From positions 1,364,001 to 1,428,000 of the forward strand of contig NZ_PGEX01000001.1 of assembly GCF_002797675.1 (NCBI RefSeq): a stretch of 64,000 bases of DNA, read 5' to 3'. The notes beneath the pieces are model-generated. The model had not been told where the DNA came from. It saw only the letters and a program-made list of their open reading frames with translations, and made no database searches. This DNA is from Hallerella succinigenes (GTDB lineage Bacteria > Fibrobacterota > Fibrobacteria > Fibrobacterales > Fibrobacteraceae). Numbering within the stretch: the stretch's first letter is position 1; each line of letters begins with the position of its first letter. The position numbers were made by a program, and so were the translations under genes. Positions 44,194 through 57,966 of the stretch are shown here, piece by piece.

Positions 44194-45546
44194 TCACTTC
44201 GCGAGCGCAGGATAAGGAGGTTCGCCGTTTTTATTCACCCCTTCCCGGCAAAGGAAGCAACAGTATAGCCATTCCAACAGGACAAAAAAGCGCCTCATGG
44301 CCCTCTTGAAGTTGAACGCCGCTGCTGCAAGCTTTGCATTGAGCATGTCGCCAAAGATTCCCTTGTAGAAATTTCTACCCATACGGTGGTCGCTTTTCAG
44401 GTGGCCGTTGATAGGCTCGATGCCTGCCCTCTTGCAAAAAAGCTTGTGAGCCTTTTCCTTCTGGTAGTAAGTCGCGTTTTTCTTCGGGACGTCCGGTATC
44501 ACGATCTTTGTCGTTCCGGATTCCTTTTGTCCGCGGTAGCCTCGGTCGCATGCGGCCTGGCTCGGCCTGAATCCAAGCATTTGTTCAACATGGTCAAGCG
44601 TATCGTCTATCGTATGTCCGTCATACTCGTCCCGGAACGAGACCGCGCCGACAATGATGCCGCTGTAGCTCCGGGCGATTGACACCTTGTTGCCGAACTC
44701 GTATTTCTTGTGTTCCTTGCCCTTGCCGATGCATTTTACTTCGGGTTCGTGAAGCGAATAGACCTTGTCCTTGTCGCATTTCTTCTGTGCCAGAACTTTT
44801 TTGAAAAGCTCGATTTTTTCTTTGTACGTGTTCAACAAGTTCTTGCTGGCGAGATTTCGCTCTAATTCACGGACGAGCCGTCCCGCGATTGTCTTCAGCC
44901 TGCGATCTGCCTTGTGAGCCTTCTTGCCGTTCTTCGGGTGATTGCGGAAACGCTGGTCACGATGGACCTTCTTCAAGGTTCTCTTGTAGGACTGTCTTTG
45001 CGGAAGATCATGCTCTTCCACGATCCTCTGTACCTGTTCTATTATCTTGTTCGCAAGTTTGGCGTCTGTAGGGAACGTGATGTTCTTTTCCTGCACGGTC
45101 GTGTCAAGAAAGACCGTGCCGCATCCTGTCGGTCCTTGTTTATCGTGGTCATCGTTGACGAGGATACTTTCCTTGAGGATCATGTCCATGCCCGCTTCGC
45201 CAATCATGTGCCGGAAGTGAACAAGTTCGCTCGGGTCGCAGGGTTGCTCCGTCGAGAAGAACCGTTCTCCGCAAAAATACTGGTAATAGGCGTTTTCCTG
45301 AAACTGCTCCACGACGGACTCGTCCGATACGTTGCGGATGTGCTTCAGGATGATGAGCCCGGTCATGAGACGGATCGGCTTGTTCGGCGCACCCATTTTG
45401 TCGTCAAACCGTTTCGAAAACTCGGTCTCGAACTTGTTCCAGTCAATCTTGTTCGCGAGAACGTAGAGGGAATGCTTGTGGTTCAACTGCTCCTCAAGGG
45501 AACAGAAAAGGCTTGTCTGTGCGTGGGATTTTGGCGGTCTGTACAT
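44194..45546 (-). CDS. IS5-like transposase, copy 1
   Basis: About 450 residues from the ATG at 45546; a TTG 21 bases upstream lies inside a hairpin. N-terminal InsH/DUF772-like region (NKPIRLMTGLIILKHIRNVS, YYQYFCGE), then a DDE domain: VFLDTTVQEKNITFPTDAKL (first Asp), SQAACDRGYRGQKES (second Asp region) and INGHLKSDHRMGRNF (Glu/His region absent, the acidic residue earlier in GIEPINGH). No ribosome-binding site precedes the ATG, only the T run of the hairpin. Confidence 0.9.
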   Translation of the reverse strand: MYRPPKSHAQTSLFCSLEEQLNHKHSLYVLANKIDWNKFETEFSKRFDDKMGAPNKPIRLMTGLIILKHIRNVSDESVVEQFQENAYYQYFCGERFFSTEQPCDPSELVHFRHMIGEAGMDMILKESILVNDDHDKQGPTGCGTVFLDTTVQEKNITFPTDAKLANKIIEQVQRIVEEHDLPQRQSYKRTLKKVHRDQRFRNHPKNGKKAHKADRRLKTIAGRLVRELERNLASKNLLNTYKEKIELFKKVLAQKKCDKDKVYSLHEPEVKCIGKGKEHKKYEFGNKVSIARSYSGIIVGAVSFRDEYDGHTIDDTLDHVEQMLGFRPSQAACDRGYRGQKESGTTKIVIPDVPKKNATYYQKEKAHKLFCKRAGIEPINGHLKSDHRMGRNFYKGIFGDMLNAKLAAAAFNFKRAMRRFFVLLEWLYCCFLCREGVNKNGEPPYPALAK

Positions 45547-45590
45547 AAAAAATTGCAAGGTTTTCAATCATATTTTAGAAAACCTTGCAA
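45547..45590 (-). terminator. terminator-like hairpin in front of the transposase start
   Basis: On the minus strand TTGCAAGGTTTTC and GAAAACCTTGCAA form a perfect 13-pair stem (12-base loop), followed by TTTTTT and then the transposase ATG. It would stop transcription reading in from outside. In copy 2 (55139-55182) one base of the stem is changed. Confidence 0.8.
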
Positions 45591-52112: not shown

Positions 52113-52128
52113 TGTTTCACGTGAAACA
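52113..52128. promoter_or_regulatory. parS site 1
   Basis: Perfect 16-base palindrome TGTTTCACGTGAAACA, the ParB/Spo0J consensus. It lies in an AT-rich gap between the lpxL-like gene and a permease gene. Confidence 0.95.
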
Positions 52129-53403: not shown

Positions 53404-53419
53404 TGTTTCACGTGAAACA
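53404..53419. promoter_or_regulatory. parS site 2, inside the promoter of the ArfA-like gene
   Basis: Perfect TGTTTCACGTGAAACA. A TATACT -10 lies at 53425-53430 and a weak TTGTTT -35 at about 53403-53408, so the parS palindrome covers the spacer. ParB binding would be expected to hinder transcription of the downstream gene. Confidence 0.9.
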
Positions 53420-53450
53420 TTTTTTATACTCTTTCTTTAAGGAGGCCTTT

Positions 53451-53603
53451 ATGGTTAAACAAAATTCCAATAACGGGACAACATTACGAACTCGAATTGT
53501 CCGGGATAAAACAAAATACAATCGAAAACAGAAACACAAGAAATCCTTCGCAGAAGCGGGGGATTTTTCCTTTATAGAAACTTTCCTTTTATTTTTCACT
53601 TGA
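53451..53603 (+). CDS. candidate ArfA/BrfA/ResQ-like ribosome-rescue factor with in-gene terminator
   Basis: 50 codons behind a strong AAGGAGG six bases from the ATG. The core LRTRIVRDKTKYNRKQKHKK is basic and aligns with E. coli ArfA FRQRVEKNK...YMRKGKH (R-x-R-V/I-x-K/R-N/D-K, then Y-x-R-K-x-K-H). A 13-pair terminator-like hairpin (53541-53566 plus U-rich tail) starts at codon 31, before the stop. The encoded end (FIETFLLFFT) is hydrophobic, like the degradable tail of full-length ArfA. Known family logic: transcripts cut at such a hairpin lack a stop codon, so the protein is made in useful form only when trans-translation fails. Function here is inferred. Confidence 0.72.
   Translation: MVKQNSNNGTTLRTRIVRDKTKYNRKQKHKKSFAEAGDFSFIETFLLFFT
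53541..53573 (+). terminator. intrinsic terminator within the coding region
   Basis: AAATCCTTCGC and GCGGGGGATTT pair along 11 positions (two G-U), AGAA loop, followed by TTCCTTT. It lies between codons 31 and 42 of the gene above. It also fits an RNase III-type hairpin. Confidence 0.75.
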
Positions 53604-53769: not shown

Positions 53770-55251
53770 GTTGACCCTTAAAAAGTCACTTCGCGAGCGC
53801 AGGATAAGGAGGTTCGCCGTTTTTATTCACCCCTTCCCGGCAAAGGAAGCAACAGTATAGCCATTCCAACAGGACAAAAAAGCGCCTCATGGCCCTCTTG
53901 AAGTTGAACGCCGCTGCTGCAAGCTTTGCATTGAGCATGTCGCCAAAGATTCCCTTGTAGAAATTTCTACCCATACGGTGGTCGCTTTTCAGGTGGCCGT
54001 TGATAGGCTCGATGCCTGCCCTCTTGCAAAAAAGCTTGTGAGCCTTTTCCTTCTGGTAGTAAGTCGCGTTTTTCTTCGGGACGTCCGGTATCACGATCTT
54101 TGTCGTTCCGGATTCCTTTTGTCCGCGGTAGCCTCGGTCGCATGCGGCCTGGCTCGGCCTGAATCCAAGCATTTGTTCAACATGGTCAAGCGTATCGTCT
54201 ATCGTATGTCCGTCATACTCGTCCCGGAACGAGACCGCGCCGACAATGATGCCGCTGTAGCTCCGGGCGATTGACACCTTGTTGCCGAACTCGTATTTCT
54301 TGTGTTCCTTGCCCTTGCCGATGCATTTTACTTCGGGTTCGTGAAGCGAATAGACCTTGTCCTTGTCGCATTTCTTCTGTGCCAGAACTTTTTTGAAAAG
54401 CTCGATTTTTTCTTTGTACGTGTTCAACAAGTTCTTGCTGGCGAGATTTCGCTCTAATTCACGGACGAGCCGTCCCCCGATTGTCTTCAGCCTGCGATCT
54501 GCCTTGTGAGCCTTCTTGCCGTTCTTCGGGTGATTGCGGAAACGCTGGTCACGATGGGCCTTCTTCAAGGTTCTCTTGTAGGACTGTCTTTGCGGAAGAT
54601 CATGCTCTTCCACGATCCTCTGTACCTGTTCTATTATCTTGTTCGCAAGTTTGGCGTCTGTAGGGAACGTGATGTTCTTTTCCTGCACGGTCGTGTCAAG
54701 AAAGACCGTGCCGCATCCTGTCGGTCCTTGTTTATCGTGGTCATCGTTGACGAGGATACTTTCCTTGAGGATCATGTCCATGCCCGCTTCGCCAATCATG
54801 TGCCGGAAGTGAACAAGTTCGCTCGGGTCGCAGGGTTGCTCCGTCGAGAAGAACCGTTCTCCGCAAAAATACTGGTAATAGGCGTTTTCCTGAAACTGCT
54901 CCACGACGGACTCGTCCGATACGTTGCGGATGTGCTTCAGGATGATGAGCCCGGTCATGAGACGGATCGGCTTGTTCGGCGCACCCATTTTGTCGTCAAA
55001 CCGTTTCGAAAACTCGGTCTCGAACTTGTTCCAGTCAATCTTGTTCGCGAGAACGTAGAGGGGGTGCTTGTGGTTCAACTGCTCCTCAAGGGAACAGAAA
55101 AGGCTTGTCTGTGCGTGGGATTTTGGCGGTCTGTACATAAAAAATTGCAAGGTTTTCAATCATATTTTAGAAATCCTTGCAATATTTTCACAGGGTAGAA
55201 ATCAGTTTTTCCCAATAGTTATGCGGGCTGGGCGGGATTTTAAGGGACGAC
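53770..55251 (-). mobile_element. IS5-like insertion sequence, copy 2 (1482 bp)
   Basis: Same length, ends and flanking TATATA (53764-53769 and 55252-55257) as copy 1, differing by a few bases. It sits between parS sites in an intergenic segment, so no gene appears to be broken. Confidence 0.93.
53786..55138 (-). CDS. IS5-like transposase, copy 2
   Basis: Differs from copy 1 by three visible residues: HSLY to HPLY near the start, KKVHRD to KKAHRD and KTIAGR to KTIGGR in the middle. Same DDE layout and ATG directly behind the leader hairpin. The hairpin here has one mismatch (GAAATCC in place of GAAAACC), which may weaken the terminator. Confidence 0.9.
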   Translation of the reverse strand: MYRPPKSHAQTSLFCSLEEQLNHKHPLYVLANKIDWNKFETEFSKRFDDKMGAPNKPIRLMTGLIILKHIRNVSDESVVEQFQENAYYQYFCGERFFSTEQPCDPSELVHFRHMIGEAGMDMILKESILVNDDHDKQGPTGCGTVFLDTTVQEKNITFPTDAKLANKIIEQVQRIVEEHDLPQRQSYKRTLKKAHRDQRFRNHPKNGKKAHKADRRLKTIGGRLVRELERNLASKNLLNTYKEKIELFKKVLAQKKCDKDKVYSLHEPEVKCIGKGKEHKKYEFGNKVSIARSYSGIIVGAVSFRDEYDGHTIDDTLDHVEQMLGFRPSQAACDRGYRGQKESGTTKIVIPDVPKKNATYYQKEKAHKLFCKRAGIEPINGHLKSDHRMGRNFYKGIFGDMLNAKLAAAAFNFKRAMRRFFVLLEWLYCCFLCREGVNKNGEPPYPALAK

Positions 55252-55257
55252 TATATA

Positions 55258-55635
55258 GTTAGGTAAGGTGGAACCTTTTATATAATTTCAAAAATTTATT
55301 CGTTTAGACTAGATGGAATATTGTATATAATTCCCTTTATTTTTTATATTATTGAAACAATTCTTGGTTGATACTGCAACAAAGACACTCAAACCTAAGC
55401 ACGAGCTTTACAATGCGATCAAGAAAACTTTTCTTTTACCGTAAAGTATTTCTTCAAATGTTTCACGTGAAACATTACCTCAAATAAAACTTTAAACAAT
55501 CATCCAAAAATCAAAATTTTATAATTTCAAAAAATCCTTTCAAAATCACTTTATCCACATCTTATATTCATAAATCGTAAAACATTTAAATTACCCACTC
55601 TTCTTTTCCTTTCATATAATTCTAAATTTTTTCAC
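55258..55635. other. AT-rich gap with parS and DnaA box, no clear gene
   Basis: About 380 bases. A frame of about 30 codons (from TTG, with LVDTATKTLKPKHELYNAIK) ends at about 55443; it looks protein-like but is too short to call. It may be the end of a gene split earlier. parS site 3 (55459-55474) and a perfect DnaA box (55551-55559) follow. Confidence 0.5.
55459..55474. promoter_or_regulatory. parS site 3
   Basis: Perfect TGTTTCACGTGAAACA, about 160 bases upstream of rsmG. Confidence 0.95.
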
Positions 55636-55643
55636 GTGAAACA
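55628..55643. promoter_or_regulatory. parS site 4, overlapping the rsmG start
   Basis: TTTTTCACGTGAAACA, one mismatch at position 2. The GTG of this palindrome (55636) is also the best rsmG start codon. Confidence 0.82.
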
Positions 55644-56286
55644 TTACTCAGATTCAAATCAAGAAAAATTGCTCGTTGAATTTCTTTCAGCGAATGGAAT
55701 TTCCTTATCTGAAAATATTCTTGAAAAACTTTTCGCTTACGTAAATTTGGTAATTATCGGAAATGAAAAAGTAAATCTGATTTCCAAAAATGATATTCCC
55801 AAGTTTTTGACTCGCCACATTGCGGATTCTCTTTTTCCGTATATCGTTCTGTCTAAAGCAAATTATTTAAAACCTGGAATGGTCTGGACCGATATGGGCG
55901 CCGGTGGTGGCTGTCCTATTTATCCGCTTGCGATTGTTTGTCCGTATATTCAATTCTATGCATCTGAACCTCGTCACAAGAGAGTTCTCTTTTTGGAAGA
56001 AACCAAGAACGCTTTAAAACTCGAAAATCTGACTGTTGTCGGCAAACGTTTTGAAACTTCTAATATCCAAAATTGCGACATCATTTCTTGCAGAGCGCTT
56101 TCCCGTTTTGAAGCGGATTATGAAAGAGCTCTTCCGGGCCTTAAAAAAGACGGAATATTTGTGACATTTAAAAGTCGTGAAATTGCTCAGGAACTGAAGG
56201 ACATTCCGAATGTTCATTTAATCGATTACAATCTTCCTCTTGAAACTCAAGAATACTCATTAGTGATCAAAGGAATCTATGGGTAA
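55636..56286 (+). CDS. rsmG: 16S rRNA m7G527 methyltransferase (GidB)
   Basis: 216 residues. Motifs: NEKVNLISKND, HIADSLFPYIVL, SAM-binding MGAGGGCPIYPLAIVCP, and the SCRALSRFE region. Classical order near bacterial origins is rsmG-parA-parB, as here; the 3' end overlaps parA by 8 bases. The GTG start lies in parS site 4 and lacks a clear ribosome-binding site; a TTG at about 55669 is an alternative. Confidence 0.88.
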   Translation: MKHYSDSNQEKLLVEFLSANGISLSENILEKLFAYVNLVIIGNEKVNLISKNDIPKFLTRHIADSLFPYIVLSKANYLKPGMVWTDMGAGGGCPIYPLAIVCPYIQFYASEPRHKRVLFLEETKNALKLENLTVVGKRFETSNIQNCDIISCRALSRFEADYERALPGLKKDGIFVTFKSREIAQELKDIPNVHLIDYNLPLETQEYSLVIKGIYG

Positions 56287-57064
56287 AGTTATCGCTATTT
56301 GTAACCAGAAAGGTGGCGTGGGTAAAACAACTACAGCAATCAACCTTGCTGCCAATTTTGCCGCTTTAGAAAAGAAAACCCTCCTGATCGACATGGACCC
56401 GCAGGGGAACGCCTCTCAAGGTTTGGGTTATCTGGAAAGCCAGGAAGAAGACGTGCACGAAGCACTCGAACTGGCAGAAAGTCCAGATGCGATTACAAAA
56501 ACAGCTCTGAAAAAGTTCGTTTTGAAAACGGACTTGGACTATTTGAACGTCATTACTTCTGGTCCGGACCTTTCCGTAATGGAATTGGAATTGGTGAACG
56601 CAATGAGTCGTGAACACCGTCTGAGCCGTATCACGAATGTATTGAAGGAAGAGTTTGAATATATCATTATAGACGCTCCTCCTAGCTTGAACCTTTTGAC
56701 CTTGAATGTCTTGACCGCAGCCGACAGCGTTTTGATCCCTGTCCAGTGCGAATACTACGCTTTGCAAGGTCTTGCAGAACTTTTCAACACAATCCGTCTT
56801 GTTCAGAAAAACTTGAATAATCATTTGAACATCGAAGGCGCACTTCTCACCATGTACGATAACCGCTTGAGCCTTTCCCGCCAGGTGGCAGAAGAAGTTC
56901 GCAACGTCATTCCGGAACGTGTTTTCAAAGTCATGATTCCACGCAACGTCAAACTCAGCGAAGCTCCGTCCCACGGAAAACCGGTTATTCTTTATGATGT
57001 CAAAAGTGCCGGTGCACAGGCTTATATGAAACTCGCTGAAGAAATCATCAATGGGGTGAAGTAA
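56279..57064 (+). CDS. parA: chromosome-partitioning ATPase ParA (Soj)
   Basis: 261 residues. Deviant Walker A KGGVGKTTTAINLAANFA, DMDPQGNASQGLG, and the DAPPSLNLLTLNVL Walker B region. It drives chromosome segregation with ParB. It overlaps rsmG and is followed by parB after 2 bases. Confidence 0.96.
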   Translation: MGKVIAICNQKGGVGKTTTAINLAANFAALEKKTLLIDMDPQGNASQGLGYLESQEEDVHEALELAESPDAITKTALKKFVLKTDLDYLNVITSGPDLSVMELELVNAMSREHRLSRITNVLKEEFEYIIIDAPPSLNLLTLNVLTAADSVLIPVQCEYYALQGLAELFNTIRLVQKNLNNHLNIEGALLTMYDNRLSLSRQVAEEVRNVIPERVFKVMIPRNVKLSEAPSHGKPVILYDVKSAGAQAYMKLAEEIINGVK

Positions 57065-57066
57065 CT

Positions 57067-57966
57067 ATGGGAAAAAAATCGATGGCGCTCGGTCAGGGAC
57101 TGAGCACAATCATGCAGAGCCACGCTCAAACTTTGAACGATCAGCTCAACCAGGATGAAAATGGAAATACCATCCAGGTGAAAAAAATCAACCTTGACTT
57201 GATTGACCCAAACCCGTATCAGCCCCGTACCGAATTCAACGAAGAAGAACTCGTTGAACTCGCAGAAACCATTGAACAGCAAGGGTTGATCCAGCCGATT
57301 ACGGTTCGAAAATTCAACGGACGTTACCAAATCGTAAGCGGTGAACGCCGTACCCGTGCAGCACGTCTTGCCGGTTGGACGACCATCGACGCTTATGTGC
57401 ATGAACTCCTTTCCGACAAAAAAATGGCGGAATGGTCTCTCATCGAAAATATCCAGCGTGTGGATTTGAATGCGATCGAAGTCGCTAAGTCCTATGAAAA
57501 GCTGATTGAAAATTACGGTTACACCCATGACGATCTCGCAAAGAGCGTGGGCAAGTCCCGTTCGGCAGTCACGAATGCACTCCGTCTTTTAAAGCTCCCG
57601 GAACAGGTCCAAGCCTGGATCAGCGAAGGAAAAATTTCCCAGAGCGCAGCCCGTACCTTACTCAGCCCGGAAATTTCCGACCCGGAAGCCGTTGCCCGTG
57701 ACATCATTGAAAAGGGAATGAACGTCCGAGAAATTGAACAGATTTCCAAGGACAAGAAAAAGGAAAAGGCTCCAAAGGATCCGGCAGTCGAAACTCCTCT
57801 CGACCCGAACATCGTTTCTTTCCTCAAAAAAATGGAAGAATTTTTCGGCACGTCCGTCAAACTCCAGAAGGGAAGTGAAAACGCTTCCAAGGGAAAGCTC
57901 ATCATCGATTACTATTCCTTTGAAGATTTGACCCGCATCCAGGAAAAAATGGAAGGATTGAATTGA
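57067..57966 (+). CDS. parB: chromosome-partitioning protein ParB (Spo0J)
   Basis: 299 residues. ParB/Srx domain with QPRTEFNEEELVELAETI and the CTP-binding GERRTRAARLAGW, helix-turn-helix (DLAKSVGKSRSAVTNALRLL), KISQSAARTLL, and a C-terminal dimer domain (SKGKLIIDYYSFEDL). It loads at the parS sites listed here. The N-terminal MGKKSMALGQGL region resembles the ParA-interacting tail. Confidence 0.96.
   Translation: MGKKSMALGQGLSTIMQSHAQTLNDQLNQDENGNTIQVKKINLDLIDPNPYQPRTEFNEEELVELAETIEQQGLIQPITVRKFNGRYQIVSGERRTRAARLAGWTTIDAYVHELLSDKKMAEWSLIENIQRVDLNAIEVAKSYEKLIENYGYTHDDLAKSVGKSRSAVTNALRLLKLPEQVQAWISEGKISQSAARTLLSPEISDPEAVARDIIEKGMNVREIEQISKDKKKEKAPKDPAVETPLDPNIVSFLKKMEEFFGTSVKLQKGSENASKGKLIIDYYSFEDLTRIQEKMEGLN

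Follow-up and report, generated by a model that had tools for sequence, protein, structure and literature searches.

Control by non-stop mRNA has been documented for two backup ribosome rescue factors, ArfA and BrfA, whose mRNAs end ahead of the stop codon and whose products are degraded after tmRNA tagging (PMC6881298, PMC8012679). Residues 25-29 of ArfA form a strand that joins the sheet of RF2, and the ArfA C-terminus fills the mRNA tunnel (PMC5378476). A Lys-His pair is common to ArfA and BrfA (PMC8012679, PMC6881298). A survey of 15,259 genomes recorded arfA in 0 of 1,956 FCB-group genomes (PMC11633108). The documented non-stop-mRNA examples belong to Proteobacteria and Bacillus, so that a case in Fibrobacterota, with an ArfA-like core and another N-terminus, would widen the use of this trick. 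Backup rescue factors determine whether a bacterium survives without tmRNA.

We analyzed a 64,000-nucleotide stretch of the Hallerella succinigenes genome (the window), in which the initial annotation had described a 50-codon gene with a strong AAGGAGG. This gene was found on the plus strand at the position given in Table 1, and it is the only rescue-gene copy in the 3.13-Mb genome. The start proposed earlier, 53404, lies outside the gene and coincides with a perfect parS site. The protein begins with MVKQNSNNG directly downstream of its own Shine-Dalgarno sequence, and it is short and expected to be disordered off the ribosome.

Table 1. Positions of the probable rescue gene, its signals and the adjoining partition genes in the window
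Feature	Position	Strand	Remarks
Possible -10 element TATACT	53425-53430	+	Predicted, weak; relatives have TATATTTG similarly far upstream
Shine-Dalgarno sequence AAGGAGG	53439-53445	+	ATG 5 nt downstream; AAGGAGG or AAGGAGA equally spaced in nearly all relatives
ORF of the probable ribosome rescue factor, 50 codons and TGA	53451-53603	+	Translation MVKQNSNNGTTLRTRIVRDKTKYNRKQKHKKSFAEAGDFSFIETFLLFFT
Conserved-core codons LRTRIVRDKTKYNRKQKHKKS, resembling ArfA residues about 25-48	53484-53546	+	KH codons at 53532-53537
Hairpin in the reading frame, 13 pairs, loop AGAA	53539-53568	+	Folding and comparison
T-rich tail TTTTTCCTTTA	53563-53573	+	Transcript 3' end expected within or just past the tail; conservation among relatives ends about 6-8 nt past the stem
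ORF end with hydrophobic codons and TGA, not conserved and probably outside the mRNA	53574-53603	+	About 8% amino-acid identity
parS sites TGTTTCACGTGAAACA	52113-52128, 53404-53419, 55459-55474, 55628-55643		Three perfect, one near-perfect
gidB	55636-56286		Adjoins parS sites
parA	56279-57064		Adjoins parS sites
parB	57067-57966		Adjoins parS sites

RNA folding showed that positions 53539-53551 pair with 53556-53568 around a 4-nt loop (13 pairs, -16.5 kcal/mol), with the stem starting inside codon 30, TTTTTCCTTT lying directly 3' of it as a weak U tract, and the TGA following 11 codons past the stem. None of 200 dinucleotide shuffles reached this folding energy (z -2.95), and the 13-pair terminator-like hairpin that had been noticed ahead of the stop codon was thus confirmed by folding and shuffling. 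A stringent scan of the 64 kb for hairpins with a T-rich tail returned five sites, of which the rescue-gene site was the only one lying in sense orientation within a gene; two of the others were located just beyond gene ends, one was antisense within a gene, and one was unassigned. The shortened mRNA is expected to yield a product of about 40-42 residues with its end near ...KSFAEAGDFSF.

We then assessed the similarity of the conserved core, LRTRIVRDKTKYNRKQKHKK, to ArfA. In a profile-profile comparison that used six ArfA proteins, the core matched the RF2-strand and mRNA-tunnel segment over 21 columns (hhalign 92.3%, E 5.5e-7), with both ArfA segments, the RF2 strand and the tunnel segment with its Lys-His pair, present. 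Among single sequences, similarity was weak for E. coli ArfA (7.7% of shuffles reach the score), and clear both for Vibrio campbellii ArfA (0.2%) and for the ArfA of Pseudoalteromonas phage J2-1 (FRTRVERDKTKYRRKKKHK), in which 14 of 18 residues are identical to those of the window core (0 of 2,000 shuffles reach the score). The phage protein exceeded the cut-offs of both PF03889 (41.3 bits) and DUF7230 (28.6 bits), and by sequence it bridges the window core and ArfA. The ArfA alignment of the initial annotation is therefore real, being upheld by the Vibrio and phage proteins and by the profiles, while its E. coli single-sequence match is weak. Common descent with ArfA seems likely, short of proof because the match is short and lysine-rich. 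The phage J2-1 gene itself (L136:511-663) ends in an ordinary stop codon, lacks a hairpin, and is therefore free of tmRNA control by the hairpin route.

The Pfam ArfA model matched none of 13 family members, no protein of the genome that holds the window, and nothing in 168 Fibrobacterota genomes, with a positive E. coli control. In the alignments, the N-terminal minidomain of ArfA (hydrophobic patch L19, L24, F25) and its KGKGS were absent, and only F25 had a counterpart, L12. The window protein also lacks GGQ, the motif of the hydrolase domain that ArfB carries itself. The only Pfam match of the window protein was DUF7230 (PF23876), at 26.5 bits for the full length and 27.1 bits when trimmed against a cut-off of 27; this match covers core residues 16-33, half of the profile, and all members score near the cut-off. 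No protein exceeded the 27-bit DUF7230 cut-off in the genome-wide search, and neither the protein nor its profile gave a match in NCBIfam or the PDB. Among 395 Bacteroidota, DUF7230 had three matches, all below the cut-off, and the core profile had 14, most of which were K-RIPVPQKPPK peptides that end in normal stops and lack the hairpin, so that we do not extend the hairpin trick to Bacteroidota. The Bacteroidota proteins L138-L150 are small basic peptides of the form K-RIPVPQKPPK-VEKxKKVYxRKK(H/E), some with KHKK, with normal stops and free of hairpins. One Fibrobacterota homologue, L097, has a K-RIPVPQKPPK-type N-terminus joined to a KH core and also carries a terminator in frame.

Of 168 Fibrobacterota genomes, 71 contained homologues, and almost all of these belong to Fibrobacteraceae; the first profile identified 70, all Fibrobacteraceae, and a broader profile added G001 from another family. 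The first scan yielded 23 Fibrobacter homologues (L002-L024), and among the family-positive genomes are the F. intestinalis type strain and genomes resembling F. succinogenes. Homologues in dozens of species retain the hairpin together with the basic motif, a combination on which the initial annotation had made its reading depend. Three genomes (G095, G108, and G131) carry a second gene copy. That of G095 (L094) is divergent and has a hairpin of another sequence, and that of G108 (L096), also divergent, lies among short phage-like ORFs and has a normal stop without such a hairpin. The hairpin contains an insertion in L065 and is lost in L069, close to a contig end. No relatives were found in plasmids by tblastn with the family proteins or in a scan of viral contigs, and a Capnocytophaga hit (L025) was rejected as a chance match. 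The N-terminal stretch of about 28 residues kept by the relatives (AKES..LR.LRIDGSQ) is missing from the window copy, and no copy was matched in four of the six genomes of the same genus; for these reasons, simplification or decay of the gene may be under way in the window lineage.

Conservation was next compared along the gene in 59 distinct sequences. Amino-acid identity was 0.81 upstream of KH, 0.90 over the ten hairpin codons, 0.51 over the next three codons, and 0.08 beyond them, and the corresponding base identities were 0.77, 0.88, 0.71, and 0.29. Base by base, conservation ceased 6-8 nt past the stem, where the T tract ends. Among homologues, the distance from the hairpin to the stop codon ranges from 3 to 78 codons, and no conserved stop codon was present in the gene's frame or in the other frames of the post-hairpin stretch. 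Judged from these alignments, the conserved transcription unit stops ahead of any stop codon. The same signature, in which conservation runs out at a T tract and includes no stop codon, could reveal similar unannotated genes.

Codon choice within the hairpin followed the pairing. The alanine codon whose third base falls in the loop was variable (GCC 43, GCT 11, GCA 10, GCG 1), whereas the alanine codon two codons on, in the stem, was GCG in 64 of 64 sequences; the serine codon was TCC in 65 of 65 and the glycine codon GGG in 60 of 60 (Fisher p 1e-36 for the codon-choice contrast). Across 46 distinct sequences, 98.0% of 552 pair cells held standard pairs, compared with 42-64% when the partner was slid. 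Pair-shuffle controls were exceeded only mildly (25/500 and 11/500) because half of the pairs are invariant. The third bases of the K1 and F codons, which form the outermost pair, showed no association, and this pair is therefore unconstrained. In the divergent homologues L093, L094, L061, and L097, hairpins of different sequence occupy the equivalent position and encode different residues, with long T runs in L093, L061, and L097. Protein constraint alone is insufficient to account for this replacement, which is our strongest point. Three lines of comparison, namely codon usage, base pairing, and the substitution of other hairpins in divergent homologues, show that the hairpin is kept as RNA.

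The genome encodes tmRNA (tag ANEDYALAA), SmpB, RF1, and RF2, the last with SPF and the switch-loop Trp (WGSQIRSY) that ArfA needs. We consider the gene very probably an RF2-recruiting, ArfA-type rescue factor that is made from a non-stop mRNA and repressed by trans-translation, and we infer the transcript 3' ends, tagging, RF2 dependence, and release. The rescue-factor reading of the initial annotation is supported by the joint conservation of motif and hairpin, by the RNA-level constraint, and by the ArfA-like core, and two outcomes that by its own terms would have refuted it did not occur. Transcription would stop, or the mRNA would be cut, at the in-frame hairpin, leaving an mRNA without a stop codon. 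With tmRNA and SmpB working, the product would be tagged and degraded; with these failing, the untagged 40-42 residue protein would build up and serve as a backup. On a non-stop ribosome, its basic C-terminal segment, which carries the Lys-His pair, would occupy the vacant mRNA tunnel, and RF2 would be recruited through a strand made by the LRTR[IV] stretch; the GGQ motif of RF2 would then release the peptide. Both the appearance upon trans-translation failure and the RF2 recruitment are proposed by analogy with arfA and brfA.

How the non-stop mRNA arises allows for a variant of this reading, in which the same rescue factor is produced after RNase III cuts the hairpin rather than after intrinsic termination. 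E. coli arfA mRNA is cut inside a long stem, and CC or CCC interrupts the U tract in nearly all relatives. We nevertheless favour intrinsic termination, because 12-14 pairs make a short stem for RNase III, because conservation does not extend past the T tract, and because the divergent members L093, L061, and L097 have canonical terminators; cutting by RNase III thus falls on the unlikely side. The missing N-terminal residues and the patchy presence within the genus raise a different question, namely whether the window genome holds a decayed remnant of a gene that functions in other Fibrobacteraceae. Here the start, the Shine-Dalgarno sequence, the whole core, and the hairpin are all intact, and the window hairpin still pairs though its sequence is unlike that of all relatives, which makes decay unlikely.

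A change of function was weighed as well. The product could be a basic peptide that binds ribosomes or nucleic acid in another role, with an incidental hairpin and tmRNA control through non-stop mRNA but no rescue activity. DUF7230 is a family of unknown function whose members here score near the cut-off, and the Bacteroidota basic peptides have a related core with ordinary stops and no hairpin. Against these points, both functional segments of ArfA have their match in the core, and control by tmRNA through a non-stop mRNA marks ArfA and BrfA (PMC6881298, PMC8012679), so that we regard another role as quite improbable. Attenuation, with the ORF as a leader peptide and the hairpin as a regulated terminator for the downstream gene, would suit a short ORF and a terminator-like hairpin near a Shine-Dalgarno sequence, but the gene context speaks otherwise. 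The nearest downstream gene, which belongs to many unrelated groups across the loci, runs in the opposite direction in 45 of 70, and in the window it is a minus-strand transposase. The peptide itself is conserved, and no conserved competing antiterminator arm or stop codon was found. Attenuation was rejected on this context, the downstream genes not being conserved, and is hardly conceivable.

Returning to the rescue factor, we compared it with the described systems. It resembles ArfA (PF03889; E. coli yhdL, Vibrio, and phage J2-1) in its core, [LF]RxR[VI]..-K-..Y.RK.KH, in its size and Lys-His pair, in its presence beside tmRNA, and in a hairpin ahead of the stop that predicts a non-stop mRNA. 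Unlike ArfA, it has no Pfam ArfA match and no KDNALKA N-terminal minidomain, its KGKGS is shortened by three residues to the TK type as in phage ArfA, a short stem and a T tract take the place of the long RNase III stem, and it belongs to the phylum Fibrobacterota. It shares with the RF2-dependent BrfA of Bacillus subtilis (PMC6881298) the Lys-His pair and, as predicted here, a terminator-like hairpin inside the ORF; BrfA, compared by description, differs in its 72 codons, about 62 residues made, and N-terminal helix, and it was not returned by phmmer of ArfA against the PDB. Francisella ArfT (PMC6299226) is likewise short and basic, and its release-factor-dependent rescue is a property that the present protein may share, but ArfT has the tail KKGGSTNKK, also uses RF1, and has no hairpin control (PMC6299226).

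No description of a Fibrobacter rescue factor or of DUF7230 was found in the literature searched, in agreement with the initial annotation, which had known of no example in Fibrobacterota, and with the 0 of 1,956 FCB-group genomes in the survey (PMC11633108). The regulatory trick is already known, and the lineage, the N-terminus, and the DUF7230 link appear to be new. More tentatively, and with some doubt, the gene could represent an undescribed release-factor-dependent rescue family that links ArfA and DUF7230 beyond Proteobacteria and Bacillus, in which the in-frame terminator is constant and the hairpin sequence is repeatedly replaced; rescue factors would then also be found among the DUF7230-like proteins of other phyla, in some cases with ordinary stops.

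No ArfB was found in the window genome. A third RF-1-domain protein (194 aa, FQGGGPGGQ; L060:1234-1818, minus strand) was examined and rejected, as it had no ArfB match and is not ArfB. Among Fibrobacterota, 15 genomes carry ArfB, and none of the 71 family-positive genomes has both. This exclusion had a P value of 1.6e-4 by genomes and of about 0.1 by genera, the latter not significant and computed with 14 ArfB genera, 13 of them over the cut-off. Mutual exclusion of ArfB and the rescue gene is thus suggestive, and many relatives have neither. The rescue gene would explain how Fibrobacter may manage without ArfB, and it offers a testable function for DUF7230.

The parS sites (shuffles mean 0.04), together with gidB, parA, and parB, form a chromosome partition locus. 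One parS falls in the rescue gene's promoter region, and ParB might therefore affect this gene; the site is missing at the relatives' loci. Just past the rescue gene lies a transposase with DUF772 (457 aa, 53786-55159, minus strand), and an ORF of equal length at 44194-45567 on the minus strand is probably a second copy of this transposase.
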